A stretch of DNA of 64,000 bases. Origin: Phytoseiulus persimilis (lineage: Eukaryota; Arthropoda; Arachnida; Mesostigmata; Phytoseiidae). Numbering within the stretch: position 1 is the stretch's first letter; every line of letters begins with the position of its first letter. Shown here piece after piece: positions 15,430-56,259 of this stretch. A model generated the notes under the pieces. The model did no database searches. It saw only the letters and a list, made by a program, of their open reading frames with translations, and was not told where the DNA came from. Position numbers and translations under genes: made by a program. The DNA lies in assembly GCA_037576195.1 (NCBI GenBank), contig CM075104.1, positions 23,204,211 to 23,268,210 on the forward strand, in the 5' to 3' direction.

Positions 15430-16648
15430 CGGGAATTGAGTAGGTGAGGTCCCTGGCAAGCGGATCGACAGCGAGCGGACCCGGATGGATGCGGGGGATT
15501 GGGCGAGGTCAGGTTAGATTCCTGGCGAGCGAGCAGACCCAGAGAAGTGCGGGGGAATGGGTGAGGTTCGGTATTCTTCGCGAGCTCTAACGCGGGTAAG
15601 TTTCGTTTCCTGTCCTCCTCTCCCAACGGTCAATTTGCAATTCCGGCGTGTTCTGACTTTTTTGTTCTTTCGCGCAACCCGCCCAAAGCAGAAATACCTC
15701 TTCCTTTTAGGCGGCTTGAAATGGGTTCTCTTTCAGTAAACGCTCGCCGACGTGAGCCGACTACGAAGTAGCGGCTGCAAGCCACCACACTGACGGCCTG
15801 GCGAGTTTCCTTCTGAATAAAGCGCGGGCTGGTCCCAAGCAAGGAAGCATGATCAGAAATTTATGGGTCTGTGGCATTCTGAGGGCTTCCTTGACCGATG
15901 GTATGGAATCATCCCGAGCGTGGCGAGGGACACGAACTGCAAGAAGCTTGGGAGTCAGGGATGGGGATTGGATAAGGCTAGGTTTCTGGCGAGCGAGCGA
16001 AGCGATTCGAGCAGACTGACAGCAAGCGGCCCGAGGGCACTGCGGAGAGATTGAGTAAGGTGAGGTTAGGTTTCTGGCGAGCGAGCGGAGCGATTCGGGC
16101 AGACTGACAGCAAGCGGCCCAAGGGCACTGCGGAGAGATTGAGTAAGGTGAGGTTAGGTTTCTGGCGAGCGAGCGGAGCGATGCGAGTAGACTGACAGCG
16201 AGCGGCCTCAGAGGCCGAAACACACCGATACGCAGGGCTCCGACCACCGTCATCCCTCACCCATGTTGTGACTCTCTCCCCTTCGAGCGTCAGCTCGCCA
16301 GGTTGGCGTGTCTACCTTTGGCTCCTCGGGTCGGCGGGCGTATCCTGAAAAAATTCCGTCAAAATGTAAACAAGCTTTCCCCCAACACGCCGATTCGGGG
16401 AGTTGACGGTAGAGAGAGGAGGTGGGGAGAGGAGGACAGGAAACGAAACGTACCCGCGTTCGAGCTCGCGAAGAATACCGAACCTCACCCATTCCCCCGC
16501 TCTTCTCTGGGTCCGCTCGGTGTGGGTCTGCTCGCATCGCTGCTCTCGCTCGCCAGGAAACTAACCTCACCCTATCCCCGCATTTCTCCGGGTCCGCTCG
16601 CTGTCGATCCGCTTGCCAGGGACCTCACCTACTCAATCCCCGACACTT
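15430..16648. mobile_element. fold-back (long inverted repeat) element
   Basis: 15430-15650 and 16395-16648 are imperfect reverse complements over roughly 220 bases, beginning with GAATTGAGTAGGTGAGGTCC on the left and ending with its complement on the right, and including the shared segment around GTTTCGTTTCCTGTCCTCCT. The interior holds an 88-bp tandem array and no coding sequence. This is the layout of a fold-back or long-TIR nonautonomous transposon. The Copia insertion at 16685 starts just after its right end. No target duplication was identified. Confidence 0.6.
15966..16230 (+). repeat. 88-bp tandem repeat, about three copies
   Basis: The phrase GAGTAAGGTGAGGTTAGG recurs at 16053 and 16141, giving a period of 88 bp. 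Each copy contains the GGCGAGCGAGCGGAGCGAT core shared with neighbouring repeats. Confidence 0.85.
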
Positions 16649-16684
16649 TTTTCTTTTTTTTTTCTCTGAGGCGGGTGGAGAAAT

Positions 16685-17061
16685 TGTTGAGTATTTGATG
16701 TTTTACCCAGAGCAGTCGTCGGCACAGTTTTGGTAATCAGGGAAGGCGCCAGTCGTGTAAGCGAAGCGTCAGTGAACTTTGAGCATGATCATCCGCGCAC
16801 AGGCGATACTGTAGATCACTGAGATAGAAATCGGACGCCTGTAGACTGACGTCAAACGTCAGTGTTCGCCGTGTAACTCTCCCCTGTCAGTGACTATAAA
16901 AGCCGGAATAAAACTTCAGTGTGTTGGGGGAGCCAAACATTCTGTCCACCAGAATTGTCGTTTTCATTCAGTAGCCGTCATCTCCAGGCAAGTCTTGTAT
17001 GCGTCACCGATCTTCTCATCCAGCCGCAAAGAAGCTAGAGCCAGGCCCAAAAGGCTTATCA
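16685..17061 (+). repeat. Copia 5' LTR with promoter and poly(A) signal
   Basis: A 377-bp LTR beginning TGTTGAGTATTTG and ending GGCTTATCA. It contains TATAAAAG at 16895-16902, an Inr-like TTCAGT at 16915-16920 about 20 bases later, and AATAAA at 16907-16912, so transcription start and polyadenylation signals are tightly packed, as in other LTR elements. Confidence 0.95.
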
Positions 17062-17077
17062 GCGTTATCAGCACGGC
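17062..17077 (+). other. candidate Copia primer-binding site (internal tRNA type)
   Basis: GCGTTATCAGCACGGC lies directly after the LTR. It lacks the TGG start of a tRNA 3'-end PBS, and would be complementary to an anticodon-arm sequence of the form GUGCUGAUAACGC, resembling a tRNA-Ile (GAU) arm. Priming from an internal half-tRNA is known in Copia elements. The tRNA identity here is inference. Confidence 0.45.
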
Positions 17078-17149
17078 ACACTCAGGTTGAGCGGGTCGGT
17101 GACGTAAGTATACATCGGTGAATCAAGGAAGTCACAGTTCAGCATCACG

Positions 17150-20100
17150 ATGTCAAGACAGCAATCCGCCAGAGATGCCCAAGGCCCCAACGGCTTCGTT
17201 CACTACGGACTGGACGGTCTCGAAGTTGATCCAGAACCCAGCTCCAGCACATCCGGAGATCCCATCGTGTGTGGACCAAGACCACGAGTCGCAACCAACA
17301 TCATCCTAGCACTAGACGGCAAGAACTACATACCATGGCGCACAGTCATGCCATCCGTACTAGATGGAGAACCGTATGCCTGGCCTGTAACCATCGGGAA
17401 ACTCAACCCACCAGCTCCAGATCAAGCAAACACACCAGAGGGCAAAACGCAAATGAAGAACTACACCATCGGAAACAGAGCTGCGAGGTACGTGCTAATC
17501 AACTCGATACACCCGAATCTCGCCACATCATTATTCCTCGACAACGCAGATAACATAGCAGCACAGGAGATATGGCGCCGAATCAAGAACAAGTTCACGC
17601 GCGCAACAGGCACAAGGAAGGGTTGGCACTGTCGAAGTTCATGACGTTCGAATACCAGCCAGGACTATCCGTTGGCGATAACCTCCTCGCTTACAAGAAA
17701 GTCATCTTCGAGCTCAACACAGTTGGAATCAACTTACCAGACGATGTTCAGTGCTCCAAACTTCTAGAGGCGCTTCCAAGTTCATGGGAACCGTTCCGAC
17801 AGGGATGGAGCACCCGACTGGACTCTGACAAACATCTGGACACACTGACGGATCTAATCGAAGGTGAAGCCACTCGAAGGAACCAAAGTGACGTCAACGA
17901 GATCACGGCGATGTTCTCCCGATTCAACCCCTCAAGGAATCAACACTTCAGGAGAAGAAACTTCGCCAGAAGATCAAACTTCCGAAGAACATCTGTGCAG
18001 TCATCCGAAGTGATATGTTACAACTGCAATCAAAGAGGACACATGCAATCAGCCTGCAGACTTCCCCGACAAGGCGGGAATCAACGCAGAGGCGGATTTC
18101 GAGGCAGAGGAAGAGGCAGAGGACAATCGAGAACACTGCCGCCGCAAGCCAACATTGCTGAAGCCCTGATCGTGGAATGCCAGCAAGCCGAAGTCAATCA
18201 GGCAAGTGCTGAAGAAATATTTGCTGTTGATAGCGGCTCGACCCACCACATGCTAACCAGCCTGAAATGGATGACGGACTACAAGCCGTTCGAAGACAAC
18301 CAAGTGGTCGCACTCGGCGGATCCAACACCCTAAGTGCACAGGGGTCAGGAACCGCAATCGTGCCAGTGAACAACGACAACAAGACCGCAACGCTATGTC
18401 TGAAGGACGCTCTGTACGTACCCAGGCTTCGTAGAAATCTAATCTCAGTTTCGAAGCTACTAAACGAGAAGTTTCGCATTTTGGTAACTGAGGAGGCCAT
18501 CACCATACTCCGAGACAACGATGAAGTTCGAGCTGAGCAACAAAACGGATTGTTCATGTTCCATGCAAGTGAACCAGTGGAGGGAAACGTTGCGGGACTG
18601 AAGAAGAGAGTAAGTCTGAAAGCGGTACATGAAATGTTCGCTCACATCAACGTTAAGACCCTCGAGAAAATGCTGAACCGCGAAGGATACGAGATAATCA
18701 ATGACTTCGTGAAATGTGACGTATGTACCCAAGGCAAGATGCATCGTTCGAGCAACAGGCCGAAACCCGGGAAAGTGGTAGCTCCAAGACCAGGGTACAT
18801 ACACGCGGACACCTGCGCTATGCGTAAGAGATCTCTTGGAGGAGCGAATCTGTTTCTCACGCTGACTGACGACATGACTCGGTTTCGAAAAGTGTACTTC
18901 TTGAAATCAAAGGATCAAGTGCCTGACCACATCGCGGAGTTCGTCAAATGGTTCCAGAATCAAAGCGGTTTCACTGTGTATCATCTCCACTCTGATGAAG
19001 GGACTGAGTTCAAGAATCAGAGAGTGAAGGAGATCATGAGTGCCATCGGAGCTGATGTAAGTTACTCCCCTCCTTTTACCCCCCAACTTAACGGTGTAAG
19101 TGAGCGTTTAAATCGATCGTTGCTTGACTTGGCAAGGACCATGCTCATCGACAGTGGCCTGCCCAAGTACCTTTGGGCGGAAGCCGTGAGCTTTTCCGCC
19201 CACGCGACGAATTGCGTAAAGTTTGTCGAATCAACCGGGAAGACACCGTACGAGATGATCATGAGGAGAAAACCATACATCAGTCTCATCAGAGCATTTG
19301 GCACCGAGTGCAAGTTTTACAACCGCACCCCGCGGAAGGACAAGTTGGACACCAGAGGATTCCCAGGCTACATCGTCGGGATCGACGAAGATGGACTCAG
19401 CTATCGTGTGTGGTATCCCGAGACCAGACAGATCGTCAGGACGAAAGACGTGAAGGTGAGCACTCCCAGTCCACTGGATGGAGGAGTCGCCTCAGAGAAT
19501 GCCGCCGAAGCAGAAGCGCCTGAAGGCAACGGCGAAGAGCAGATCGAAGAAGCCAATCCGTCAGCGGATACCAGAGAGAACGCATCAGCAAGAGAAGAAG
19601 CAGCATCCGCGGGCCCCGTGCCGGAAAGAGAATCCTCGAATGAAGGACATGGCGCCGCAGGAGCGGCTGCCCCAAGTGAAAAACGCAACGAACGGCGCGG
19701 GAGATACGAGCTACGAGATCGATCCAAGTTGCGTCCTCCGGAGAGGTATCAGGCCGGCAGCGCACACGTTGCGATGTGTGTCAGCGAAACAGTAAGCACC
19801 GTTGTAAATAATTTGGTTGACGAACCAACATGTATAGAAGATGTTCACAAGTCCAATTACAGCCAACAGTGGCTTAGTGCAATGGCAGAGGAGATGGCGT
19901 CGCTCGATTTCCACAAAGTTTGGGAGCTCACCGAACTTCCAAAAGGCAAACGCACGGTTGGGAATCGATGGATCTTCAAAGCGAAGAAAGACGCCCTAGG
20001 TAACATCGAGAGGTTCCGTGCAAGATGGGTCATTCAAGGATTCAGCCAACGTCCAGGTAAAGATTTCACAGAGCTCTACTCGCCTGTAGCTAGGTTCGAT

Positions 20101-21381
20101 ACCATCAAAACAATACTATCAATAGCTGCCAGGGAGAAATTGAAGCTATACCAATTCGACGTTAAGACAGCATTCCTACACTCGGAACTATCGGAAGAAA
20201 TCTACACGAACCAACCAAAAGGGTTCGAAGATGGAACAAATCTAGTCTGCAAACTCTTGAAGGCGGTCTACGGGCTTCGTCAGGCATCAAGGGCTTGGAA
20301 CCTGAAGATCCACCAGGTTCTGACAGGACTTGGACTCACACAGAGCCAAGCTGACCCTTGCGTGTACTTCACAATTGGCCCAGAACGAATTTTGGTTGCC
20401 CTGTACGTTGACGATGGATTGACAGCGGGATCAGACCAAAAGGTCGTGCAGGAGTTTCTCGAGAACCTCGGTAAGGAGTTCGAAATCACTTCCAGGAAGT
20501 TAGAGTTCTTTCTCGGTCTACATGTCGAATCATCAGATGACAACTCCGTCATTCGTGTCCATCAAGCAAAGTATATCCAAGAACTGCTAGACAGATTCCA
20601 GATGTCGAAATGCAAGGAAACAGCAGTCCCAATGGACAACAGCTACAAGTTGAATCCCAGTGACGAAGTCGAGCCAGAACTGCCGTATCGTTCAATTGTT
20701 GGTGGTTTGATGTACCTCACGATTGCGACGCGTTTTGACGTCGGTTACGTGGTAGGATACCTGTCAAGGTTCCTGGATCGTCCCACCAGACGTCTTTGGC
20801 ATCTCGCATTGAAAGTGCTGCGCTACCTCCAAGGTACCAAGACTTTCGGTCTCCGGTACACGGGGAGCGGTCCAGAGCTGCTCGAGTGTTTCAGCGATGC
20901 AGATTTCGCTGGCGACGAGCAAACGAGACGGAGCACCACTGGGTCATTGATTCGGTTCGGAGCTGGAGTCATTTCTTGGGCGAGCAACCGCCAAGCGTCC
21001 GTGACGCTTTCTTCAATGGAGGCGGAGCTTGTGGCCCTCTCTGAGACACTCAAGACCGCGATTTGGACAGCGCGCTTACTCGCAGAGCTTGGACATCCAG
21101 TCGTACCAAAGTTGCTCGTTGACAACCAGTCGACGATCGCTCTTGCTGAGAATCCTTCTTTCCACAAGCGCTCAAAGCACATCGAGGTGAGACATTTCTA
21201 CTGTCGAGAGAAACTACAGCGCGGAGAAGTCACAATCCACTATTGCCCGACAGCACAGAACGTTGCTGATATTCTGACGAAGTGCCTGCCTAGAGAAACG
21301 TTCCAAAGACTTAGATCACTTGCAGATGGAAACCGTCAAGATGATGATCGCGTTCATCATGGTTTGCGTGATGGCCAGTAG
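17150..21381 (+). pseudogene. Copia Gag-Pol polyprotein with one frameshift in gag
   Basis: The ATG at 17150 opens Gag (DGKNYIPWRTVM...). The frame shifts near 17600-17640, after NKFTRATGT, and continues to 21381 in the frame of 17572. Domains in that 1269-codon frame: the UBN2-type Gag remainder; zinc knuckle CYNCNQRGHMQSAC (about 149); protease AVDSGSTHHML (about 218); integrase zinc site HEMFAHIN with CDVCTQGK; integrase catalytic residues in HADTC, HSDEGTEF and NGVSERLNR (about 411, 474, 509); RT with VYGLRQASRAWN and YVDD (about 945); RNase H with SDADFAGD (about 1110), MEAELVALSE and the closing ADILTKCLPRETFQRLRSL. All enzyme motifs look intact, and the single gag frameshift is the only visible defect. 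Confidence 0.93.
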
Positions 21382-21533
21382 CGCGTTGGGGTACTTCACA
21401 TACTCCGACTGCGACACTGATTGTCAGAAGATGACCTGGCCATGCACGATTTCCCGAACAAACGAAAACAACTTCCCATGCGACTGCGTGGAGCTCGAAG
21501 CGAGCTGCCTCAGATTGGCGTCAAGAGAAGTTG
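21341..21533 (+). pseudogene. Copia accessory ORF3, N-terminal part: signal peptide and Cys-rich region
   Basis: The ATG at 21341 lies 41 bases inside the end of pol, in another frame. The first about 17 residues (MMIAFIMVCVMASSALG) are a convincing signal peptide. The following 45 or so residues are cysteine-rich, with CDTDC, a WPC and PCDC. A Gypsy element inserted at 21534, and the same frame resumes at 27173 with no shift once the insertion and one copy of the GTTG duplication are discounted. The uninterrupted ORF would be 170 codons including stop. I do not recognise the family. Overlap with pol, a signal peptide and a later hydrophobic segment are env-like features, but capture of a host secreted-protein gene is equally possible. 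Confidence 0.65.
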
Positions 21534-21735
21534 TGTTGGTAGGATGATAACGGAGAACTCGCGACTCTGGCCCACGACGATTTATTTCACAATTACCGAC
21601 TCACGGCCCCCAGGGCTCGATATTGTCGCGGCTCTGCTCGACGTGTGGTATCAATTGCGCCTTTTTTGATTGCATGACGCCCGGAGGCCTTTAAGTGTGC
21701 GCCGTCGCGGCGGGAACTACCTAGCATTGCTAACA
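21534..21735 (-). repeat. Gypsy 3' LTR
   Basis: 202 bp, TGTTGGTAGG...GCTAACA on the plus strand, nearly identical to 26967-27168. Confidence 0.95.
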
Positions 21736-21983
21736 TTCGACCATCCTGACTCCACGACGTCCCCGTCGACACTAGGCTGGGATTAAGTTAACTGGAGGGA
21801 GTGACTCGATCCCCGTTCTGCCGATGAAATAACTGAACACCGTGACAGCCACCAGAGAACCTTGAGTGACATTTGCGAAGTGATTGATATGAAAAATCGT
21901 GGATTGCTAGATGTGGGATTGCTTTCTATAATTTGCCTTTCGCCGGAGATCGCTTCATACCTAAGGGATCACAAGTCTTCGAG

Positions 21984-24900
21984 CTAATTGGACGGGTCGA
22001 AGATCCTCCTGGGTTTCGGTATCCGAGTTGTGCGTCTTGGGTGCGGTCGACTCTTGTCGGTTGTGTTCGTCGGATTCGCTGGGGCTACGGATTCTGCAAT
22101 GTCCTCCGAATTCGTTAGTAACCGATCGTCTGTGCCTCCGAGAGTGTCGACGGTGTCGGAATTCGAACTACCTACTGCACTGCCGGTTTCAATGGTGCAA
22201 GGGAATTCACTCGATTGGTTGTCTTCAGAAGCACCGAACAAGCGGAGCTGGCTTATATGGGCTGTCGCTCCATTCTCCTGTTCTTCGTCCAGGGAGACCA
22301 CCGCGTAAGTGTCACCTCCGAATGCTCTTGTGATAACCATGGGTCCGCGGTACAGCGCGTCCAGTTTTCTAGATGTTCCATCGGCCGCTCTCTGTGGGGC
22401 TGAAAACCACACAACGTCGCCCGGCGACAATCGTTCCGCTGCGCGATGTCTTCTGTCGAAATGCGTTTTGGCCTCTCTGAACGATTTCCTAATGCGGAGA
22501 AGAGCTTCCTCCTTGAGCTGTACAGGGTCTTTACGAAGCTTTGTTGATGGGTGCGTCAGTGCACTGAGAAACCTGTCGGTTACCTCCGGATCAAACCCGC
22601 ACAACAGGCGAATCGGCGTTTCACCGGTGGCCTTATTAACCGATGTGTTGAGGATCAACTGGATTTTCTTGAGTAGGAGGTCCCAGTTGCCTACCTTTCT
22701 TGCATGAAGCAGTTTCGCCAGTAACGGAGTTACGATTCCATTTACCCTCTCCACTTGACCGTTACCTTGAGGTCGTCGTGGCGAGTTGAGGTGATGTTGA
22801 GTTCCAAGGCGTGTTAGATGGCTCTGGAATGTTTTTGACGTAAATGCTGTCCCCCGATCAGTTGTCACATGGGCAGGGACTCCCCAGTCGGAAGTGAATT
22901 TCTCGAATGCCAGAATAGTCTCCTTGGCTGACGTATCACGAACGGCCTCGAGGTATGCGAACTTTGTCAGGCGGTCGACTATGACGAGGATGTGAGTCTT
23001 TTTCGAGAAGGTGGTCGGGTAAGGACCCACGTGATCTACATGAATCCAATCGAATAGGCGAGTAGGAGTGGGGATTTCCTGTAGCAGTCCTGGTTGTTTT
23101 CCACTTCTTCTTTTGTGCGCGAGGCAGGGTATACAGCGAGCAATGTGGTCTTTTATGTATCGTTTCATTCGCGGAAACCAGCACTTTCGCAAGATGATCT
23201 CTGCGGTCCTCTCCACTCCGAAGTGACCCTGAAAATCGTGAGCGCGGATCACGACAGCCTTTCTCTGAGAGTCCGGTATGACCAGAAGATTCGCGTTCTG
23301 TATTTTCTTGTAAAGGACGCCGTCGTCCACTGCAAACGAGTCTACCAAAGTCTCCTCTTGCCGGGATCTTTCCTCGCTCGGTCTTCTGAGGATGTCTATC
23401 CTGTTCCGCAGCCGCTCGTCCTCTCGCTGAATCGCACGCAGCTCCTCGAGGTATGTGAGGGGCTGGGTTGGCTGTACGGACGTTTCATCCTTGTCTCCGG
23501 TAATCAGTGTCTCTAATTCGGCGTTATCCTCCGCACCTGACGTCTCTGCGCCGCCGCAGTAGATCCTCTCGACGTCGCTCGGCGACTTGTCTGTCGGGTT
23601 TCGAGATAGGGCATCGACATGTGCCATTCGAGATTCCGCGCGGTGTTCCACTGTGAACTGGAAGTCCTGGATCAACGCCAGCCAGCGCGCCATCTGGGGA
23701 TTCCTCGTCGACTTCGCGTTGATACACAGAAGTGCCTGGCAGTCTGTAACGAGCTTGAATGATCTACCGATCAGGAACGAACGTAGCTTTTCCAGGGCAA
23801 AGGTGATGGCAAGAAGCTCAAGGCGGGATGAGTGGTACGATGACTCCGTCGGGTTACATTTTCTCGAAACGCAACGCACCAAATGGAGTCTTCTGTGCTC
23901 GTCGGGCTGTAACATCATTGCCGCGAGTCCCACCGAAGATGCGTCCGTGTGTACCTCTATGATTGCGTTTGGGTTGAACAAGGCGAGGACAGGCGGTTTG
24001 CACATGACCGACTTCAATTTTCCGAAGGCAGCTGCATGGGGTTCGTCCCACTCGAAGGGGTTCTTGGTCGATGTCAACGCCGTCAGGGGGGCAGCGACCG
24101 TTGCGTAGCCTGGGACGAATCTACGGAAGAAACCGCAGAGGCCCAGAAACTGTCGAACCTGTGTAATGTTACTGGGCGTGCGAAACTTGGCTATCGACCT
24201 GAGTTTGTCCTCAGTGGGTGCCACCGTGCCCCTCCTGATCAGTAGTCCCATAAAAACGACCTCTTCGTATCCGAATTTACACTTCTCTGGATTGAGGGTT
24301 AGTCCAGCCTTTCTGATTCTCGCGAACACTTCTCTCAGTGTCCGCATTAGTGCCTCGAAGTTCCTGCCCTTGACCAACACGTCGTCGAAAAAGTAAAAAC
24401 AAGACCTGTTTCGACGCAACGGACCGAGAACCAGGGACACAAGGTGGTTGAAGATGGCCGGGCCATTTTTAAATCCGAACATCATCCGGTTAAACTCGCC
24501 GCTCGATTCCGGTGTGATAAAGGCTGTGAGTCTCCGAGCCTTCTTTGCGAGCGGAATCTGCAGAAATCCCTGCATGAAGTCTAACTGTGCGAAACAATTA
24601 GCATCAGAGAGATCCATCAATTCGTCTTCTATGTTGGGGATGGGCCAGTGCAGATCTATGGCAATATCGTTCAATTTCCTGACATCGACGACTACTCTTT
24701 TTTTCGAGGTCTTACCAGGGACGAGTTTGGTTACCACGAATGCCGGGCTCGCGAAGGGGCTTCGCGTATCGGACACAACTCCGGCTTCTCTCCACAGCCG
24801 TATTTGGTCTTCCATGAAATCCCGGTCCTCCGGCGCGAGACGATACGGTCTTGCGCGTGGCAGCGACTTCCCAGGCTCGAGCTCGATATCTGCCTCGATG

Positions 24901-26932
24901 AGATTCGTACATCCAAGTTCTCGCAGGTTGAACGAGAATACGTCGCGGAATTCGTTAATTAAAGTCATCACAGCGTCCTGCTGCGCGCTGGTAAGTGAGG
25001 GTGAAAGGTTAATCTCCGTAGGCTCGATCCGTCGTGCACATCCCACCGAATTGCCGGGCACGACAACCACATCGTTGCCCACCGATCCGGCGGGTGAGGA
25101 CCTATCTGGCAACTCAGCCAACCTGACGTCCTCCTCCGCCAGGATCCTGCCTCTACCTAAGCGATCACCTGGGCGAAACAGCACAGGTTTGGGACCATGA
25201 TTTTCGACAGGAATCCTGAACCGCCCCCTGTCATCACTGTGATACACAATATCACATTCCGGGGCATGCACAACCACCGCCGAGTTCGGGTCGGTCCGCG
25301 CCTCAACGAAGGCCGCCGTTCCCGCAAGGAGCTCAACCTCCGCCGCCGCCTCCAGTCTGACGTTTCGCGCGTTTCGGAATTTCTCTAGGAGCGCGTCTGT
25401 TGGCCCCACGAAAAACTTGCCGTTGATTCGGAGCAGCGCCAAATACGGCAGGTCCAAGAACGTGCGACCGACGAAAAGCTCCTCGGGAATTGCGTCGTCC
25501 GACACAACCATAGCCTCTACGTCTTCGGCGTACCCCTCGTCCACCTGCAACGAACCCAAGACGACTCGCCCAAGGGCGACAGTAGAAGGACTTGAGATGT
25601 CTCCCGTCCCATATATTGGTATTGGCTTGAGGATCGTTCTTAATTTCAGACGATTCACCGTACTCGCCCGTATAAGAACAGATGAACATCCGGTGTCCAT
25701 CAGACCCTTAACTTGTTCCTTACCGTTGACCAGGCATGGTTTCATGTATTTCTCTCCTGATCCTGCGACCGTGGTATCCGCAGATGCGTTGCACTGTGCT
25801 CGGTCCTGTTGAGTGGGGCTCGGCCGTCGCTGGGAGTCTCTGGGGCAGTCTCTTATATAATGCCCAGTCTCTCCGCAATTCCAACAGACCGAAGAGGATG
25901 GTACGGATCGATCGGTCCCTCGGTGGTGCGGCCGAGTCATTGCTCGAGGTGCCTCCTCCGTCATACCATGACTTCGACCTCTGTTCTGGAAATGGCGAAA
26001 CGGCGCGCCGCCGGTCGGGTCAAGAGGCCCGAAAGACCCGTCACTGCCGCGTCGTTCCTGCGCTCCATTGGAACCTGGAGCAAACTCCGGAGTCGCTCCC
26101 CAAACCGGTGCACGAGAGCGGGAACTCCACCGACGAGTGTTCACCTGAACAAACTCCCGGTCTCGAGGCCCATTTCGGCACTCATCTCCATGCCCGGATG
26201 CGCGTTTAAGCTCACGCGGAGTTCTCGAGGCGTCCAAACCGATCATCCGGGCGGCCCTCCCCACGTCAGCAACCAAAGCCACCACGCTGGCCGATGGATG
26301 ATGGGACATCGCCAATTTGACCGACGTGAACACCTCATGTATTCCTTCCACGATATGGTCGAAGGCTTCCTCGAACGGAATCCCCGCCGCCTGAGCCATG
26401 CTGGCCTTCTCAAAAACGTATGATTCCATGGGGGTATCGGCCGATTGCACGAAAGTGAAGAAGGCGCTTGATGTACACCCCGGCAGGACGAAGGCGGCGG
26501 TGAAGCGCGGGGAGAAGGCCGTTTCGTCCTCAGCATCGTCGAATGAAGAGAACGGGTTTTCGCGTCCTCAAAATGGAACCACGTTGCCGCGCGCCCCTCA
26601 AGGTGCGCGAGAGCAAGGCTCAGGGCTGCCTCCGATCCCTCCCCCGAACTCGAAATTTCCCCCTTCATCTGCAATAGCCACCTCCTGGCCGCCAAACCCT
26701 TGCTGGCTCCGTCATACAAAGTCAACCGAGGACCCCTCCGAGAAACCACCGGTTGGCGATCTGTCATAGTCCGCATAAGGCTCGTGAGTTGCTCCGTCAA
26801 CTCGAGAATCCTTTGTTCCATTCTGAACGTTCGTGCGGTCTCGAAAGGAAAAGTAACGTTAACCGGTATCCCTCGTGTCCGTCTCGCGTTGATTCGAGAA
26901 ATCCTACCTGCTCTTCCGGGCCCTGCCCTCAC
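21984..26932 (-). pseudogene. Gypsy Gag-Pol polyprotein with one frameshift in gag
   Basis: Gag starts in one minus-strand frame (26932 on) with LTLYDGASKGLAARRWL and ALAHLEGRAATWFHFEDA. Near 26560, at a run of four A's, the frame changes by one base, and a single frame then runs to 21984. In the 1488-residue ORF beginning at 26450: zinc knuckle CWNCGETGHYIRDC (189-202); protease LMDTGCSSVLI (about 250); RT with QLDFMQGFLQIPL and FFDDVLV (about 688; most Gypsy elements have YLDD or YIDD); RNase H HTDASSVG (about 832); H2C2 zinc site HDFQGHFG...CIPC; integrase triad in IHVDHVG, TTDRGTAF and QGNGQVERVN. No chromodomain is seen. The shift lies inside Gag rather than at a Gag-Pol border, so it looks like a mutation, not programmed frameshifting. 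Confidence 0.92.
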
Positions 26933-26966
26933 AAATCCAACGAGCTCGGTTATCCCACTTCTGAAT

Positions 26967-27168
26967 TGTTGGTAAGATGATAACGGAGAACTCGCGACTC
27001 TGGCCCACGACGATTTATTTCACAATTACCGACTCACGGCCCCCAGGGCTCGATATTGTCGCGGCTCTGCTCGACGTGTGGTATCAATTGCGCCTTTTTT
27101 GATTGCATGACGCCCGGAGGCCTTTAAGTGTGCGCCGTCGCGGCGGGAACTACCTAGCATTGCTAACA
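26967..27168 (-). repeat. Gypsy 5' LTR
   Basis: 202 bp, the partner of 21534-21735 with a single difference. On the minus strand it is followed by ATTCAGAAGTGGGATAACC, the position of a primer-binding site. Confidence 0.95.
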
Positions 27169-27172
27169 GTTG

Positions 27173-27489
27173 TATGCCTGATCAAGAATAGGACTGCCGT
27201 AGGAGGAGAAGACGTTTGGATTCCATACTTCAACCATACGCACCCGTCGACGCCATCGCCCCCGGTTCCCGATCCTGATCGGACGATTGGATATTGGTTC
27301 GAATTCCTGTCGATATACTTTGTAGTCACAAACGTGCTCTCGGTACTCGCCGGATTGGTCGTTTCACGAGATGGATCGGACGAATTCGAGCGCGTTCATA
27401 CGCTCACTTGCCTGATCCGCCTCTTGAACAGGAGGATGGACCAACCGACCGACAACCGAAGAGATTTGAGATGTAACTCTTTCTTGTGA
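27173..27489 (+). pseudogene. Copia accessory ORF3, C-terminal part: glycosylation sites and hydrophobic segment
   Basis: This continues the frame interrupted at 21533. It has NRT and NHT N-glycosylation sequons, a proline-rich stretch (HPSTPSPPVPDPD), a hydrophobic segment of about 22 residues (WFEFLSIYFVVTNVLSVLAG) that could span a membrane, and a basic tail ending at the stop at 27489. AATAAA lies about 20 bases after the stop. Apart from the Gypsy insertion the frame is open throughout. The layout is that of a small type I membrane glycoprotein; the function is unknown. Confidence 0.6.
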
Positions 27490-27547
27490 ATCTCGCTTTT
27501 CCCAAATAATAAAACGCACGTCTCACTATTTACAAATTTGAAGATTT

Positions 27548-27556
27548 GAACCTTTA
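27548..27556 (-). terminator. poly(A) signal of the antisense ORF
   Basis: On the minus strand the stop TGA is followed by TCGACG and AATAAAGG. A plus-strand AATAAA for ORF3 sits about 45 bases away (near 27507), so the two transcripts converge with almost no gap. Confidence 0.6.
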
Positions 27557-27564
27557 TTCGTCGA

Positions 27565-28257
27565 TCAAGCAGAGAAGATCGAAAATTTGGAACAGAGCCT
27601 TTGTATCTCAGATACATCTTGTCCAAAAGCAGCGAAACTACTTGGATCATAGTTTCGAACTGACAAGCGATCTGGAGTCGGAATGAGCAGAGGGATGACG
27701 ACACAGCGTCGATCCCTGCGGTAGATGCAGGTTCGCACATACGACAACTGGTAACAATGATATCCACGGATATCCAATTCGAATCGCCTGGGTGGCGAAG
27801 TCGATGAAATCGAAACGGTGCTCATTTCCGAAATCGAACTCGAGATAGTCGATATGGAAGCGGCGTCAGTTGTCGTTGAATGCGTGATTGACTTTGGAGA
27901 AGTAAGACGCCTGGTTGTGGAAGTAGAAGGAAAAGTCCGAGCTGTTGTCGTAAGCGGCAGGTCCGAGGCAACAACACCCTCGGCAGTGGTCAAAGAAGAC
28001 CGAGTGGTGTTGTTGTTGTGGTCGTTCAGATCGGTGATTATGACTTGTAACTTATGGTTGAAGGACTCACCGAACAACATGCGGAGACATTGTATCGCTC
28101 CGATGATGGCGGCTGACACCAAAAACGACGTCCCTGGTCGTTCTCTGATCCTGGCCAGAAGAGCGCGTAAGCGCCTCAGGATCGCGAGGACTTCGTTTTG
28201 TGTCAACTCGATGACAGCGACTTGGTGGCGGCGTGGATTTTCCATCCTGTCTGACAT
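27565..28257 (-). CDS. antisense accessory ORF of the Copia element, unknown membrane-type protein
   Basis: A 230-codon ORF from ATG 28257, opposite to Copia gag-pol and convergent with ORF3 (about 75 bases between the two stops). I do not recognise a family. The N-terminal 45 residues are helical and basic (LTQNEVLAILRRLRALLARI), followed by a hydrophobic segment (SFLVSAAIIGAIQCLRML) that may anchor it in a membrane. Residues about 85-150 are very rich in Ser and Thr, and the last 80 contain several Cys and Tyr (YHCYQLSYVRTCIYRRDRRC). A TATA box and an Inr-like site lie upstream, and AATAAA lies within 15 bases of the stop. It could be an element-borne accessory gene or a captured host gene. 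Confidence 0.6.
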   Translation of the reverse strand: MSDRMENPRRHQVAVIELTQNEVLAILRRLRALLARIRERPGTSFLVSAAIIGAIQCLRMLFGESFNHKLQVIITDLNDHNNNTTRSSLTTAEGVVASDLPLTTTARTFPSTSTTRRLTSPKSITHSTTTDAASISTISSSISEMSTVSISSTSPPRRFELDIRGYHCYQLSYVRTCIYRRDRRCVVIPLLIPTPDRLSVRNYDPSSFAAFGQDVSEIQRLCSKFSIFSA

Positions 28258-28281
28258 CGCAAGGCGAAGTCACAACTCAAC

Positions 28282-28321
28282 GAGTGTGACGATCGAGTGC
28301 TCGAGAGCAACCCCTTTTATA
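28282..28321 (-). promoter_or_regulatory. TATA box and initiator-like site for the antisense ORF
   Basis: On the minus strand TATAAAAGGGG occupies 28321-28311, and TCACACT begins at 28290, about 30 bases downstream, the normal TATA-to-start spacing. The ATG follows after about 30 further bases. Confidence 0.6.
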
Positions 28322-28616
28322 CGATTTTGGCGAGAGTTTGTCTCAAGATACGGTCGTATGTCACTTCAATCGAAAGCAAATTTCGCGACAAAGATGTCTA
28401 GACAGACATCAGCCTGAAGTTTCTCTATAGAATTCGAACCATTGAACTGATAATGTATCTAGTGAAGTCTCTACACATTGCATGTCCGATAGATGCTTCC
28501 GCTGAAGAGATCTGTAATCGCGGAATCGCGCATCCGAGTAATGTCACATGCAATGTTCCCCACATCAGAAGGTTCCGGCTATGATCTGCAAGCGACTGTT
28601 CTGTGTAGGAGGGAGC

Positions 28617-28992
28617 TGTTGAGTATTTGATGTTTTACCCAGAGCAGTCGTCGGCACAGTTTTGGTAATCAGGGAAGGCGCCAGTCGTGTAAGCGAAGCG
28701 TCAGTGAATTTGAGCATGATCATCCGCGCACAGGCGATACTGTAGATCACTGAGATAGAAATCGGACGCCTGTAGACTGACGTCAAACGTCAGTGTTCGC
28801 CGTGTAACTCTCCCCTGTCAGTGACTATAAAAGCCGGAATAAAACTTCAGTGTGTTGGGGGAGCCAAACATTCTGTCCACCAGAATTGTCGTTTTCATTC
28901 AGTAGCCGTCATCTCCAGGCAAGTCTTGTACGCGTCACCGATCTTCTCATCCAGCCGCAAAGAAGCTAGAGCCAGGCCCAAAAGGCTTATCA
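28617..28992 (+). repeat. Copia 3' LTR
   Basis: 376 bp, TGTTGAGTATTTG...GGCTTATCA. It differs from the 5' LTR at two sites and is followed by the target duplication GAAAT. Confidence 0.95.
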
Positions 28993-28997
28993 GAAAT

Positions 28998-35272: not shown

Positions 35273-35385
35273 CGGCCGACTGGAGTCGGCCGCGCTGCGC
35301 GCGGTTTGACGGCGCTCCCTGCCATCGAGGCACTTTCTTTCCCTTCACTGGGTCAGCATTCTGATTTTGAAAAATATGGTCAGAT
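35273..35385 (+). repeat. hairpin-rich leader of the 45-bp composite repeat, copy A
   Basis: GCCGGCCTTCGGCC, CCGACTGGAGTCGG and GCGCTGCGCGC can each form a short hairpin. The segment through CATTCTGATTTTGAAAA is about 90% identical to 46213-46334, which precedes the second array. It is shared by both arrays, so it belongs to the repeat rather than to local flank. Confidence 0.85.
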
Positions 35386-38300
35386 TGGTCTTGGAATCAC
35401 CCCTCCAGAGTTGTAAAGTAACGCTCAGATTGGTCTCGGAATCGCCCCTCCAGAGTTGGAATGTAATGGCCAGATTGGTCCCGGAATCACCCCTCCAGAG
35501 TTGGGAAGTAATGCTCAGATTGGTCTCGGAATCACCTCTCCAGAGTTGGGAAGTAATGCTCAGATTTGCCCCGGAATCACCCCTCCAGAGTTAAAAAGCA
35601 ATGCTCAGATTGGTTTCGGAATCACACCTCCAGAGTTGCATAGTAATGCTCAGATTGGTCTTGAAATCACCCCTCCAGAGTTGGAAAGTAATGCTCAGAT
35701 TTGCCCCGGAATCACCCCTCCAGAGTTAAAAAGCAATGCTCAGATTGGTTTCGGAATCACACCTCCAGAGTTGCATAGTAATGCTCAGATTGGTCTTGAA
35801 ATCACCCCTCCGGAGTTGGAAAGTAATGCTCAGATTGGTCTCGAAATCACCCCTCCAGAGTTGGAAAGTAATGCTCAGATTGGTCTCGGAATCACCCCTC
35901 CAGAGTTGGGAAGTAATGCTCAGATTTGCCCCGGAATCACCCCTGCAGAGTTAAAAAGCAATGCTCAGATTGGTTTCGGAATCACACCTCCAGAGTTGCA
36001 TAGTAATGCTCAGATTGGTCTTGAAATCACCCCTCCAGAGTTGGAAAGTAATGCTCAGATTGGTCTCGAAATCACCCCTCCAGAGCTGGAAAGTAATGCT
36101 CAGATTGGTCTCGGAATCACCCCTCCAGAGTTGGAAAGTTATGCTCAGATTGGTCTCGGAATCACCCCTCCAGAGTTGGAAAGTAATGCTCAGATTGACC
36201 CCGGAATCACCCCTCCAGAGTTGGAAAGTAATGCTCAGATTGGTCTCGGTATCACCCCTCCAGAGTTGGAAAGTAATGCTCAGATTGGCCCCGCAATCAC
36301 CCCTCCAGAGTTGCATAGTAATGCTCAGATTGGTCTTGAAATCACCCCTCCAGAGTTGGAAAGTAATGCTCAGATTGGTCTCGAAATCACCCCTCCAGAG
36401 CTGGAAAGTAATGCTCAGATTGGTCTCGGAATCACCCCTCCAGAGTTGGAAAGTTATGCTCAGATTGGTCTCGGAATCACCCCTCCAGAGTTGGAAAGTA
36501 ATGCTCAGATTGACCCCGGAATCACCCCTCCAGAGTTGGAAAGTAATGCTCAGATTGGTCTCGGTATCACCCCTCCAGAGTTGGAAAGTAATGCTCAGAT
36601 TGATCTCGGAATCACCCCTCCAGAGTTGCAAAGTAATGCTCAGATTAACCCCGGAATCACTCCTCCAGAGTTGGAAAGTAATGCTCAGATTGACCCCGGA
36701 ATCACCCCTCCAGAGTTGGGAAGTAATGCTCAGATTGGTCTCGGAATCACCCCTCCAGAGTTGGGAAGTAATGCTCAGATTTGCCCCGGAATCACCCCTC
36801 CAGAGTTAAAAAGCAATGCTCAGATTGGTTTCGGAATCACACCTCCAGAGTTGCATAGTAATGCTCAGATTGGTCTTGAAATCACCCCTCCAGAGTTGGA
36901 AAGTAATGCTCAGATTTGCCCCGGAATCACCCCTCCAGAGTTAAAAAGCAATGCTCAGATTGGTCTCGGAATCACACCTCCAGAGTTGCATAGTAATGCT
37001 CAGATTGGTCTTGAAATCACCCCTCCAGAATTGGAAAGTAATGCTCAGATTTGCCCCGGAATCACCCCTCCAGAGTTAAAAAGCAATGCTCAGATTGGTT
37101 TCGGAATCACACCTCCAGAGTTGCATAGTAATGCTCAGATTGGTCTTGAAATCACCCCTCCAGAGTTGGAAAGTAATGCTCAGATTGGTCTCGAAATCAC
37201 CCCTCCAGAGTTGGAAAGTAATGCTCAGATTGGTCTCGGAATCACCCCTCCAGAGTTGGGAAGTAATGCTCAGATTTGCCCCGGAATCACCCCTGCAGAG
37301 TTAAAAAGCAATGCTCAGATTGGTTTCGGAATCACACCTCCAGAGTTGCATAGTAATGCTCAGATTGGTCTTGAAATCACCCCTCCAGAGTTGGAAAGTA
37401 ATGCTCAGATTGGTCTCGAAATCACCCCTCCAGAGCTGGAAAGTAATGCTCAGATTGGTCTCGGAATCACCCCTCCAGAGTTGGAAAGTTTTGCTCAGAT
37501 TGGTCTCGGAATCACCCCTCCAGAGTTGGAAAGTAATGCTCAGATTGACCCCGGAATCACCCCTCCAGAGTTGGAAAGTAATGCTCAGATTGGTCTCGGT
37601 ATCACCCCTCCAGAGTTGGAAAGTAATGCTCAGATTGGCCCCGCAATCACCCCTCCAGAGTTGCATAGTAATGCTCAGATTGGTCTTGAAATCACCCCTC
37701 CAGAGTTGGAAAGTAATGCTCAGATTGGTCTCGAAATCACCCCTCCAGAGCTGGAAAGTAATGCTCAGATTGGTCTCGGAATCACCCCTCCAGAGTTGGA
37801 AAGTTATGCTCAGATTGGTCTCGGAATCACCCCTCCAGAGTTGGAAAGTAATGCTCAGATTGACCCCGGAATCACCCCTCCAGAGTTGGAAAGTAATGCT
37901 CAGATTGGTCTCGGTATCACCCCTCCAGAGTTGGAAAGTAATGCTCAGATTGATCTCGGAATCACCCCTCCAGAGTTGCAAAGTAATGCTCAGATTAACC
38001 CCGGAATCACTCCTCCAGAGTTGGAAAGTAATGCTCAGATTGACCCCGGAATCACCCCTCCAGAGTTGGGAAGTAATGCTCAGATTGGTCTCGGAATCAC
38101 CCCTCCAGATTTGGGAAGTAATGCTCAGATTGGTCTCGGAGTTACCCCTCCAGAGTTGGGAAGTAATGCTCAGATTGGTCTCGGAATCACCCCTCCAGAG
38201 TTGGAAAGTAATGCTCAGATTGGTCTCGGAATCACCCCTCCAGAGTTGGAAAGTAATGCTCAGATTGACCCCGGAATCACCCCTCCAGAGTTGGAAAGTA

Positions 38301-41300
38301 ATGCTCAGATTGGTCTCGGTATCACCCCTCCAGAGTTGGAAAGTAATGCTCAGATTGATCTCGGAATCACCCCTCCAGAGTTGCAAAGTAATGCTCAGAT
38401 TAACCCCGGAATCACTCCTCCAGAGTTGGAAAGTAATGCTCAGATTGACCCCGGAATCACCCCTCCAGAGTTGGAAAGTAATGCTCAGATTGGTCTCGGA
38501 ATCACCCCTCCAGAGTTGGGAAGTAATGCTCAGATTGGTCTCGGAATTACCCCTCCAGAGTTGGGAAGTAATGCTCAGATTGGTCTCGGAATCACCCCTC
38601 CAGAGTTGGAAAGTAATGCTCAGATTGGTCTCGGAATCACCCCTCCAGACTTGAAAAGTAATGGTCCGATCGGTTCCGGAATCACCCCTCCACGTTTTGA
38701 GAAGTATGGTCAGATTGACCCCGGGATCACCCCTCCAGAGTTGGAAAGTAATGCTCAGATTGGTCTCGGAATCACCCCTCCAGAGTTGGGAAGTAATGCT
38801 CAGATTGGTCTCGGAGTTACCCCTCCAGAGTTGGGAAGTAATGCTCAGATTGGTCTCGGAGTTACCCCTCCAGAGTTGGAAAGTAATGTTCAGATTGGTC
38901 TCGGAGTTACCCCTCCAGAGTTGGAAAGTAATGCTCAGATTGACCCCGGAACCACTCCTCCAGAGTTGGAAAGTAATGCTCAGATTGACCCCGGAATCAC
39001 CCCTCCAGAGTTGGAAAGTAATGCTCAGATTGACCCCGGAATCACCCCTCCAGAGTTGGAAAGTAATGCTCAGATTGGTCTCGGAATCACCCCTCCAGAG
39101 TTGGAAAGTAATGCTCAGATTGACAACGGAATCACCCCTCCAGAGTTGGGAAGTAATGCTCAGATTGGTCTCGGAGTTACCCCTCCAGAGTTGGAAAGTA
39201 ATGTTCAGATTGGTCTCGGAGTTACCCCTCCAGAGTTGGAAAGTAATGTTCAGATTGGTCTCGGAATCACCCCTCCAGAGTTGGAAAGTAATGCTCAGAT
39301 TGGTCTCGGAATCACCCCTCCAGAGTTGGGAAGTAATGCTCAGATTGGTCTCGGAGTTACCCCTCCAGAGTTGGGAAGTAATGCTCAGATTGGTCTCGGA
39401 GTTACCCCTCCAGAGTTGGAAAGTAATGCTCAGATTGACCCCGGAATCACTCCTCCAGAGTTGGAAAGTAATGCTCAGATTGACCCCGGAATCACCCCTC
39501 CAGAGTTGGAAAGTAATGCTCAGATTGACCCCGGAATCACCCCTCCAGAGTTGGAAAGTAATGCTCGTTGGTCTCGGAATCACCCCTCCAGAGTTGGAAA
39601 GTAATGCTCAGATTAACCCCGGAATCACTCCTCCAGAGTTGGAAAGTAATGCTCAGATTGACAACGGAATCACCCCTCCAGAGTTGGAAAGTAATGCTCA
39701 GATTTACCCCGGAATCACTCCTCCAGAGTTGGAAATTAATGCTCAGATTAACCCCGGAATCACTCCTCCAGAGTTGGAAAGTAATGCTCAGATTTACCCC
39801 GGAATCACCCCTCCAGAGTTGGAAAGTAATGCTCAGATTAACCCCGGAATCACTCCTCCAGAGTTGGAAAGTAGTGCTCAGATTGACAACGGAATCACCC
39901 CTCCAGAGTTGGAAAGTAATGCTCAGATTAACCCCGGAATCACTCCTCCAGAGTTGGAAAGTAATGCTCAGATTAACCCCGGAATCACTCCTCCAGAGTT
40001 GGAAAGTAATGCTCAGATTTACCCCGGAATCATCTCTCAAGAGTTGGAAAGTAATGCTCAGATTAACCCCGGAATCACCTCTCCAGAGTTGGAAAGTAAT
40101 GCTCAGATTAACCCCGGAATCACCCCTCCAGAGTTGGAAAGTAATGCTCAGATTGGTCTCGGAATCACCCCTCCAGAGTTGGGAAGTAATGCTCAGATTG
40201 GTCTCGGAATCACCCCTCCAGAGTTGGGAAGTAATGCTCAGATTGGTCTCGGAGTTACCCCTCCAGAGTTGGGAAGTAATGCTCAGATTGGTCTCGGAGT
40301 TACCCCTCCAGAGTTGGAAAGTAATGCTCAGATTGACCCCGGAATCACTCCTCCAGAGTTGGAAAGTAATGCTCAGATTGACCCCGGAATCACCCCTCCA
40401 GAGTTGGAAAGTAATGCTCAGATTGACCCCGGAATCACCCCTCCAGAGTTGGAAAGTAATGCTCGTTGGTCTCGGAATCACCCCTCCAGAGTTGGAAAGT
40501 AATGCTCAGATTAACCCCGGAATCACTCCTCCAGAGTTGGAAAGTAATGCTCAGATTGACAACGGAATCACCCCTCCAGAGTTGGAAAGTAATGCTCAGA
40601 TTTACCCCGGAATCACTCCTCCAGAGTTGGAAATTAATGCTCAGATTAACCCCGGAATCACTCCTCCAGAGTTGGAAAGTAATGCTCAGATTTACCCCGG
40701 AATCACCCCTCCAGAGTTGGAAAGTAATGCTCAGATTAACCCCGGAATCACTCCTCCAGAGTTGGAAAGTAGTGCTCAGATTGACAACGGAATCACCCCT
40801 CCAGAGTTGGAAAGTAATGCTCAGATTAACCCCGGAATCACTCCTCCAGAGTTGGAAAGTAATGCTCAGATTAACCCCGGAATCACTCCTCCAGAGTTGG
40901 AAAGTAATGCTCAGATTTACCCCGGAATCATCCCTCAAGAGTTGGAAAGTAATGCTCAGATTAACCCCGGAATCACCTCTCCAGAGTTGGAAAGTAATGC
41001 TCAGATTAACCCCGGAATCACCCCTCCAGAGTTGGAAAGTAATGCTCAGATTGGTCTCGGAATCACCCCTCCAGAGTTGGGAAGTAATGCTCAGATTGGT
41101 CTCGGAATCACCCCTCCAGACTTGAAAAGTAATGGTCAGATCGGTTCCGGAATCACCCCTCCACGTTTTGAAAAGTACGGTCAGATTGGTTCTAGAATCA
41201 CCCCTCCACGTTTTGAAAAGTATGGTCAGATTGGTTCTAGAATCACCCCTCCAGCTTCTGAAAAGTATGGTCAGACTCGTACCGGAATCACCTCTCAAGA

Positions 41301-41330
41301 CTCGGGAAAGTATGTTCAGATTGGTCCCAG
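35386..41330 (+). repeat. 45-bp minisatellite array A (about 132 units)
   Basis: Head-to-tail units of the form CAGATTGGTCTCGGAATCAC + CCCTCCAGAGTTGGAAAGTA + ATGCT. The most variable part is the six bases after CAGATT (GGTCTC, GACCCC, AACCCC, TGCCCC, TACCCC, GACAAC). Almost all units are exactly 45 bp. The last few (41160-41330) are diverged, with CGTTTTGAAAAGTATGG. Because 45 is divisible by three and the unit lacks stops, several frames on both strands stay open for hundreds of codons. The longest is 1382 codons and has no ATG at its start. The variation changes amino acids freely, which argues against coding. Confidence 0.97.
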
Positions 41331-41340
41331 AATCACCTTC

Positions 41341-46334: not shown

Positions 46335-47667
46335 GGTCTCGGAATCACCCCCAGAGTTGGAAAGAAATGCTCAGATGGGTCTCGGAATCACCCCTCCAGA
46401 GTTGGAAAGTAATGCTCAGATTGGTCTCGGAATCCACCCCCCAGAGTGGGAAAGTTATGCTCCGATTGGCCCCGGAATCACCCTCCAGAGTTGGGAAGTA
46501 ATGCTCAGATTGACCCCGGAATCACCCCCTCCAGAGTTGGAAGTAATGCTCAGATTGGCTCCCGGAATCACCCCTCCAGAGTTGGAAAGTAATGCTCAGA
46601 TTGACCCGGAATCACCTCTCCAGAGTTGGAAGTAATGCTCAGATTGGTCTCGGAATCACCCTCCAGAGTTGGAAGTAATGCTCAGATTGGTCTCGGAATC
46701 ACCCCTCCAGAGTTGGAAAGAATGCTCAGATTGGTCTCGGAATCACCCCTCCAGAGCTGGAAGTAATGCTCAGATTGACCCCGGAATCACCCCTCCAGAG
46801 TTGGGAAGTAGTGCTCAGATTGGTCTCGGAATCACCCCTCCAGAGTGGAAGTAATGCTCAGATTGGCCCCGGAATCACCCCTCCAGAGTTGGAAGTAATG
46901 CTCAGATTGATCCCGGAATCACCCCTCCAGAGTTGGAAGTAATGCTCAGATTGGCCCCGGAATCACCCCTCCAGAGTTGGAAAGTAATGCTCAGATTGGT
47001 CTCGGAATCACCCCTCCAGAGTTGGGAAGTAATGCTCAGATTGAGCCCGGAATCACCCCTCCAGAGTTGGAAGTAATGCTCAGATTGGTCTCCGGAATCA
47101 CCCCTCCAGAGTTGGGAAAGTACTGCTCAGATTGACCCGGAATCACCCCTCCAGAGTTGGAAAGTAATGCTCAGATTGACCCGGAATCACCCCTCCAGAG
47201 TTGGGAAGTAATGCTCAGATTGCCCCGGAATCACCCCTCCAGAGTTGGAAGTAATGCTCAGATTGGTCTCGGAATCACCCCTCCAGAGTTGGGAAGTAAT
47301 GCTCAGATTGGACCCGGAATCACCCCTCCAGAGTTGGGAAGTAATGCTCAGATTGGCCCCGGATCACCCCTCCAGAGTTGGGAAGTAATGCTCAGATGGC
47401 TCCGGAATCACCCCTCCAGAGTTGGGAGAGTACATGCTCAGATTGAGCCCCGGAATCACCCCTCCAGAGTTGGGAAGTAATGCTCAGATTGACCCCGGAA
47501 TCACCCCTCCAGAGTTGGGAAGTAATGCTCAGGATTGACCCGGAATCACCCCTCCAGAGTTGGAAGTAATGCTCAGATTGACCCCGGAATCAACCCCTCC
47601 AGAGTTGGGAAGGTAATGCTCAGATTGACCCCGGAATCCCCTCCAGAGTTGGAAGTAATGCTCAGAT
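46335..47667 (+). repeat. 45-bp minisatellite array B, left part
   Basis: Same unit as array A but with many one-base gains or losses, mostly in short runs (GGAAAG versus GGAAG, ACCCCGG versus ACCCGG), so no long ORF survives. It is interrupted by a LINE at about 47668. Confidence 0.95.
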
Positions 47668-56000: not shown

Positions 56001-56259
56001 TTGGGCTCGGAATCACCCCTCCAGAGTTGGAAGTAATGCTCAGATTGGCTCGGAATCACCCCTCCAGAGTTGGAAAGTAATGCTCAGATTGGTCTCGGAA
56101 TCACCCCTCCAGAGTTGGAAGTAATGCTCAGATTGGTCTCGGAATCACCCCTCCAGAGTTGGAAAGTAATGCTCAGATTGGTCTCGGAATCACCCCTCCA
56201 GAGTTGGAAGTAATGCTCAGATTGGTCTCGGAATCACCCCTCCAGAGTTGGAAAGTAAG
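53013..56259 (+). repeat. 45-bp minisatellite array B, right part
   Basis: Continuation of array B beyond the LINE. Units of 43-46 bp include GGTCTC, GGCTC, GGCCCC and GACCC variants, with frequent one-base length changes. It ends near GGAAAGTAAGGGTAACTAAA. Confidence 0.97.

Follow-up and report, generated by a model that had tools for sequence, protein, structure and literature searches.

A candidate ambisense module of surface-protein genes downstream of pol in a Copia retrotransposon lineage of Phytoseiulus persimilis

Accessory genes of described retrotransposons and of the Copia element studied

Accessory genes have been described in several groups of long terminal repeat (LTR) retrotransposons and are compared here with those of a Copia element located at positions 16680 to 28997 (plus strand, target duplications included) of a 64,000-nucleotide stretch of P. 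persimilis DNA (contig CM075104.1, positions 23,204,211 to 23,268,210; this whole stretch is referred to as the window). Copia elements are described as having no extracellular phase (PMC8515867). The Sireviruses, plant Copia elements with an env-like third open reading frame (ORF), are described in the same source as restricted to plants. Antisense accessory ORFs are reported from the plant elements Retand, Grande, and RIRE2, that of Grande being transcribed from its own promoter; according to these reports, Retand with its TRP28 ORFs is a plant Gypsy element, and DNA binding has been suggested (PMC11963269, PMC7264820). The sORF2/FAST-like proteins of MDG1-group Gypsy elements are described as 63 to 107 residues long with an ectodomain of ∼30 residues, always encoded in sense and mostly upstream of gag, and were shown to serve cell-to-cell transfer (PMC11952523). 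Bdelloid rotifer ORF3 elements, which are retrovirus-like LTR lineages, carry varied extra 3′ ORFs, some of them short with transmembrane regions and Cys residues (PMC5408684).

In the lineage of the window element, a sense gene (ORF2) follows pol, and two further genes, C and A, are encoded on the opposite strand before the 3′ LTR. The order of a Copia pol and a sense third ORF with membrane-protein features is shared with Sireviruses, but the host is an arthropod rather than a plant (the arthropod cuticle domain PF00379 was found at 112 places in the genome and in 0 of 14 control genomes), and antisense membrane genes with predicted introns are not part of the description in PMC8515867. Retand-type elements are likewise described with an ORF in antisense orientation after pol and before the 3′ LTR, whereas the antisense products here are predicted membrane proteins and TRP28 (PF04195) was not among the Pfam matches of those scanned. 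Like the sORF2/FAST-like proteins as described, ORF2 is an accessory protein encoded by an LTR retrotransposon of an arthropod and is predicted to cross the membrane once; however, it is 163 amino acids long (in locus L003), has a Cys-rich ectodomain with a transmembrane stretch from about residue 112, and lies downstream of pol beside antisense genes. Modular exchange of 3′ ORFs recalls the bdelloid ORF3 elements, although those are retrovirus-like rather than Copia and antisense membrane genes are not among the features described for them in PMC5408684. As to a relationship with retroviral or errantiviral Env, the module proteins gave no Pfam or PDB sequence match to a known envelope or fusion protein, and one ORF2 model gave no significant fold match. 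A literature search, judged by titles and the starts of abstracts and with most subscription journals outside its coverage, returned no animal Copia element with antisense membrane genes. The segment from pol to the 3′ LTR thus described, with three predicted membrane proteins of which one varies, is most simply read as an envelope-like surface module. An ambisense module of this kind, in which A would be an exchangeable determinant of recognition or exclusion, is the interpretation toward which we lean.

The sense gene ORF2 and the antisense genes C and A

Sister copies were sought in the 181-Mb genome with window bases 27000 to 28600, and 33 loci were fetched. ORF2 begins at the pol end in 28 of these, and 31 keep 370 bases or more of the antisense C segment, so the extra DNA is no one-off passenger of a single copy. 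The sequence-only reading had put this DNA at about 1.6 kb, which fits the window but not the full segment, since sister copies have up to ∼2.9 kb between the pol stop and the LTR (as in L010). A stretch of ∼1.29 kb, absent between window bases 28019 and 28020 and at least partly present in 31 of the 33 sister loci, accounts for A exon 2, exon B, and most of the C stalk. The window copy is a decayed member of its family, and its 1.6-kb segment is a remnant after this deletion. Because the stretch is missing, the 230-codon antisense ORF at 27565 to 28257, taken from the sequence alone to be one gene, is instead a fusion that joins the first exon of A to the last part of C. A processed, intron-less form was also considered for this ORF and rejected, as the deleted DNA begins beyond the A donor (28070) and extends into the C stalk, where it stops short of any acceptor position.

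In the window, ORF2 starts with an ATG at 21341 and overlaps pol by 41 bases. Its 5′ piece (21341 to 21533, plus strand) encodes a signal peptide and the first part of the Cys-rich ectodomain; a nested Gypsy element then interrupts it, and the 3′ piece (27169 to 27489, plus strand) encodes the remaining ectodomain and the transmembrane stretch. Of the features attributed to this sense ORF from the sequence alone, the signal peptide was recovered as a hydrophobic start and the C-terminal hydrophobic segment as a transmembrane stretch, along with the Cys-rich part and both N-glycosylation sites, but the gene is broken by the insertion and its tail is in a frame unlike that of the sister copies. 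The same features are found in L003, and an alignment of seven members has six invariant Cys residues, a GG...W motif, and the tail motif PY..T. The prediction for ORF2 is a membrane glycoprotein of type I; its profile matched neither the A nor the C domain profile.

Gene C consists of exon B, with a transmembrane stretch, followed by a 297-amino-acid exon in which Ser and Thr make up 41% of the first 230 residues and a Cys domain lies at the end. The window retains its 3′ part (27565 to 28019, minus strand), comprising the end of the Ser/Thr-rich stalk, the Cys domain, and the stop. The intron between B and C starts with GT in 26 of 27 copies and ends with AG in all 27; L031 and L032 each have a one-base insertion there, inside the intron. 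In the distant family L043, a single uninterrupted ORF of 536 amino acids holds a transmembrane stretch, a Ser/Thr-rich part, and a Cys domain, in favor of reading B and C as one gene. The product is predicted to be a type II membrane protein with its Cys domain on a mucin-like, Ser/Thr-rich stalk. The antisense frame of C is free of stops in 23 of 26 copies, and every sense frame has 5 to 14. A sense polyadenylation signal follows ORF2 in 29 of the 32 copies examined and an antisense one follows C in 27 of the 32; the two face each other, in the window as AATAAA at 27508 to 27513 (plus strand) and at 27554 to 27559 (minus strand).

Gene A has two exons. The first is short and in the window (28071 to 28257, minus strand) runs as far as the predicted donor, encoding a basic N terminus and a transmembrane stretch; the second encodes a Cys-rich domain. 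By the positive-inside rule, basic residues before a transmembrane stretch indicate a type II protein, and A is predicted to be one. Transmembrane stretches were predicted in ORF2, in exon B, and in each of the nine A types tested. The predicted outer, Cys-rich domains of A and C are related, their profiles having matched each other (probability, 85.6; E value, 5.6e−6), with the A and C roles of the L046 rows in them assigned by eye. A TATA box, TATAAAAG, lies on the antisense strand at 28314 to 28321 in the window and at the same place in 22 of the 33 sister loci; the antisense promoter region that contains it (28291 to 28616, minus strand) ends at the 3′ LTR and is common to copies with differing gene A. 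A match to A exon 2 was present in 26 copies, 19 of which have both the TATA box and a phase-1 donor, and in 17 of these 19 a phase-matched acceptor follows 91 to 132 bases on. These intron borders are retained although the A types are barely alignable. GT-AG borders in matching phase were thus found for A and for B plus C, from which splicing is predicted.

Two distant families, represented by loci L043 (4058 to 5023, oriented) and L045 (3770 to 4558), differ from the window family, in which A exon 1 is short: upstream of the A domain, their antisense ORFs are long and coiled-coil-like and include a transmembrane stretch.

Constraint on the reading frames was assessed from the ratio of nonsynonymous to synonymous substitution rates (dN/dS), pooled over all pairs of related copies covering >60% of a segment. 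In their own frames, pol gave 0.22 (28 copies), ORF2 0.23 (29 copies), C 0.50 (31 copies), B 0.46 (26 copies), and A exon 2 0.21 (8 copies), the last despite its variability. Other frames gave 0.88 to 2.3, except for the mirror frame that shares wobble positions (0.25 to 0.51) and two more B frames (0.57 and 0.75).

The arrangement extends well beyond the window family. ORF2 matches listed from the genome reach down to 28% identity. A pol-end match lies directly upstream in 113 of the 150 listed, which speaks against a one-off passenger, and an ORF2 match lies downstream of 109 of the 150 pol ends listed. Copia RNase H sequence precedes ORF2 in all seven distant loci read. Spacing was counted from 108 of the 150 listed ORF2 matches, window-family rows being left out apart from one that stayed in. 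Of 55 C-domain matches, 41 lie 86 to 294 bases beyond ORF2, and of 36 A-domain matches, 23 lie 1.6 to 2.5 kb beyond it, all of these in antisense. For 31 of the 36 A matches, the next element of the module on that strand is a C match. The gene order ORF2 > < C < A recurs, judged from these matches, across distant Copia families of the genome, and the module is old.

These results bear on three alternative explanations. That the ORFs are chance frames or a passenger of this copy fits the finding that the 230-codon ORF is itself a deletion accident; it was rejected as almost certainly wrong, because the reading frames are constrained and the gene order recurs in distant Copia families, along with the presence of ORF2 and C in most of the 33 sister loci and the linkage to pol. 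A and C could instead be host membrane or mucin genes taken up antisense with their introns, perhaps for manipulation of the host cell. Introns and a TATA box of their own do resemble cellular genes, but no Pfam or PDB relative was found and 41 of the 55 C and 23 of the 36 A matches lie downstream of an ORF2 match, which makes capture improbable, although a host locus may exist among the remaining matches. The suggestion from the sequence alone, that a Copia lineage had gained accessory genes by env-like acquisition or host gene capture, holds for the sense and antisense membrane-protein genes between pol and the 3′ LTR, but the searches gave no indication of host gene capture or of any known source of env. 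Equally doubtful is an explanation in which antisense RNA (double-stranded RNA or PIWI-interacting RNA) or an intracellular regulator is what matters, as proposed for plant antisense ORFs, with membrane-like features being incidental; a role as RNA would require neither protein-level constraint nor intron borders, nor a transmembrane and Cys-domain architecture repeated in distant families.

Types of gene A and a possible role of the module

Hypervariability of A was sampled within the window's own family, in the 20 of 33 loci with the TATA box and an in-phase donor; L009 and L010, like L015 and L016, are near duplicates, so these copies are not all independent. With a within-type cut of 60%, which was our choice, nine exon-1 types were found among the 20 copies. 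Across the 172 pairs of different type, mean DNA identity was 96.3% in pol, 92.6% in ORF2, 90.0% in C, and 93.0% in the promoter region, but exons 1 and 2 of A had mean amino acid identities of 28.8% and 63.1%, respectively. For the 18 pairs of the same type, the corresponding means were 91.0% and 95.6%. First exons of A can be as low as 21 to 30% alike in copies that are 96 to 99% identical around A. The variable segment has sharp edges. Between L011 and L012, for example, identity is 97 to 100% from pol through C, 83 to 93% just past C, 38 to 57% across A, and 91 to 99% from the promoter into the LTR. A type changes 14 times on a pol tree (shuffled mean, 13.2; minimum possible, 8) and 12 times on a C tree (shuffled mean, 13.3; minimum possible, 8), with 19 rows in each after L025 was dropped from the former, in which many forks are weak, and L041 from the latter. 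In this sample, A types are thus distributed almost independently of the remainder of the element, close to random on both trees. Old A types may have been exchanged by recombination, e.g., by template switching between co-packaged RNAs.

An exchangeable, type-rich A between near-identical flanks would also be expected if the surface proteins, chiefly A, served exclusion or self-recognition, blocking or sorting related elements or cells with rare A types favored, and no particles passed between cells. The finding of neither fusion protein features nor homologues agrees with such a role without entry. By itself, however, it leaves ORF2, the most conserved extra gene, and the mucin-like C protein unexplained, and it is considered unlikely, though less so than host gene capture or a regulatory RNA.

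Under the preferred interpretation of an ambisense surface module, ORF2 would be read in the direction of pol, and C and A from the opposite strand, A from the conserved promoter beside the 3′ LTR. Because both genes are antisense to the genomic RNA, the replication cycle implies that their introns would survive retrotransposition. The three proteins may act at the cell or particle surface in cell-to-cell transmission, with ORF2 perhaps serving as an anchor or fusogen and C and A as binding proteins, and A may be a determinant of recognition or exclusion that copies exchange through recombination. More tentatively, and with less confidence than is placed in the module itself, the elements could form an ambisense, envelope-bearing branch of arthropod Copia with two spliced minus-strand surface genes and many exchangeable types of one of them. 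Such a branch would imply that the elements pass from cell to cell or from one individual to another and that elements residing together recognize or exclude each other in a frequency-dependent way.

Several observations weigh against the preferred interpretation of a surface module. Expression, splicing, topology, a surface role, and transmission are predicted from DNA sequence, and several copies are plainly decayed. The sense polyadenylation signals inside the element would shorten the genomic RNA unless bypassed. Constraint on C is moderate, and dN/dS in the mirror sense frame (0.47 for B and 0.51 for C) is the same as in the own frame, so that the measure cannot separate the two; the case for exon B consequently rests on its intron and on the single-exon relative in L043. 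In L032, exon B begins in another frame. Among the distant matches, 14 of 55 for C and 13 of 36 for A have no listed ORF2 nearby, and the distant locus L044 has ORF2 with no recognizable antisense partner in the stretch read. A Pfam scan of the module proteins identified no known envelope, fusion, or receptor-binding homologue, a model of ORF2 (P0001, folded with five relatives) gave no Foldseek match at an E value of ≤0.001 in the PDB or viral library, and neither a fusion peptide nor a furin site was noticed, no search having been aimed at either.

If true, the conservation of a surface module of three genes in Copia families of animals would challenge the description of Copia elements as having no extracellular phase. 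Antisense coding would also offer a retroelement a simple route to retaining introns and an independent promoter. The shuffling of gene types among near-identical copies would be an unusual sign of recognition polymorphism within a genomic parasite, one that is testable by ordinary transcript and population data.

Relatives of the module proteins and the setting of the window copy

Outside this genome, the ORF2 profile identified six proteins from short contigs (28 to 44% identical to the first query row) and the C profile identified one protein, P0007, which by eye is almost the C protein of L046; the A-domain profile identified none at an E value of ≤0.1 among 449 candidates. No relative was found in viral contigs scanned with single ORF2 proteins, and a PDB sequence search with the three profiles gave no match. 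The ORF2 fold model had a mean predicted local distance difference test (pLDDT) score of 71, with blocks of 86 to 93 in the ectodomain. No new fold is claimed for ORF2, as a second fold comparison mostly covered the transmembrane helix (residues 90 to 139) and the ectodomain was folded within the whole model only. The C domain, modelled from one sequence, had a mean pLDDT of 56. P0005 matched Commissureless weakly (E value, 0.024), short of the cut-off.

Assignment of the window element to Copia follows from an LTR pair with a target duplication and an integrase that precedes an RVT_2-type reverse transcriptase. The LTRs (16685 to 17061 and 28617 to 28992, plus strand) differ by one substitution and one 1-base indel and are flanked by GAAAT (16680 to 16684 and 28993 to 28997), in agreement with the two differing sites and shared flank given in the sequence-only reading. 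The gag-pol ORF (17572 to 21381, plus strand; stop at 21379 to 21381) encodes Retrotran_gag_2, a zinc knuckle, the rve integrase, RVT_2, and an RNase H end. A gag-side ORF (17150 to 17644, plus strand), in another frame than the gag-pol ORF that it overlaps, gave weak Copia gag matches under the cut-off. The nested Gypsy, likewise recognized from the sequence alone, occupies 21534 to 27168 on the minus strand, outside the module, and has identical 202-base LTRs and a 4-base target duplication (GTTG). With its identical LTRs and an open ORF of 1488 codons, it appears to be a very recent insertion.

An Rfam scan of the window gave no matches. Many copies of the window family cluster toward one end of contig C4 (G000), at ∼7 to 560 kb. 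Immediately 5′ of the Copia insertion lies an 88-base tandem repeat of 2.6 copies (15975 to 16207). Much of the right half of the window is occupied by three arrays of a 44- to 45-base satellite at 35376 to 41337, 46340 to 47667, and 53013 to 56258 (∼133, 30, and 73 copies, respectively).
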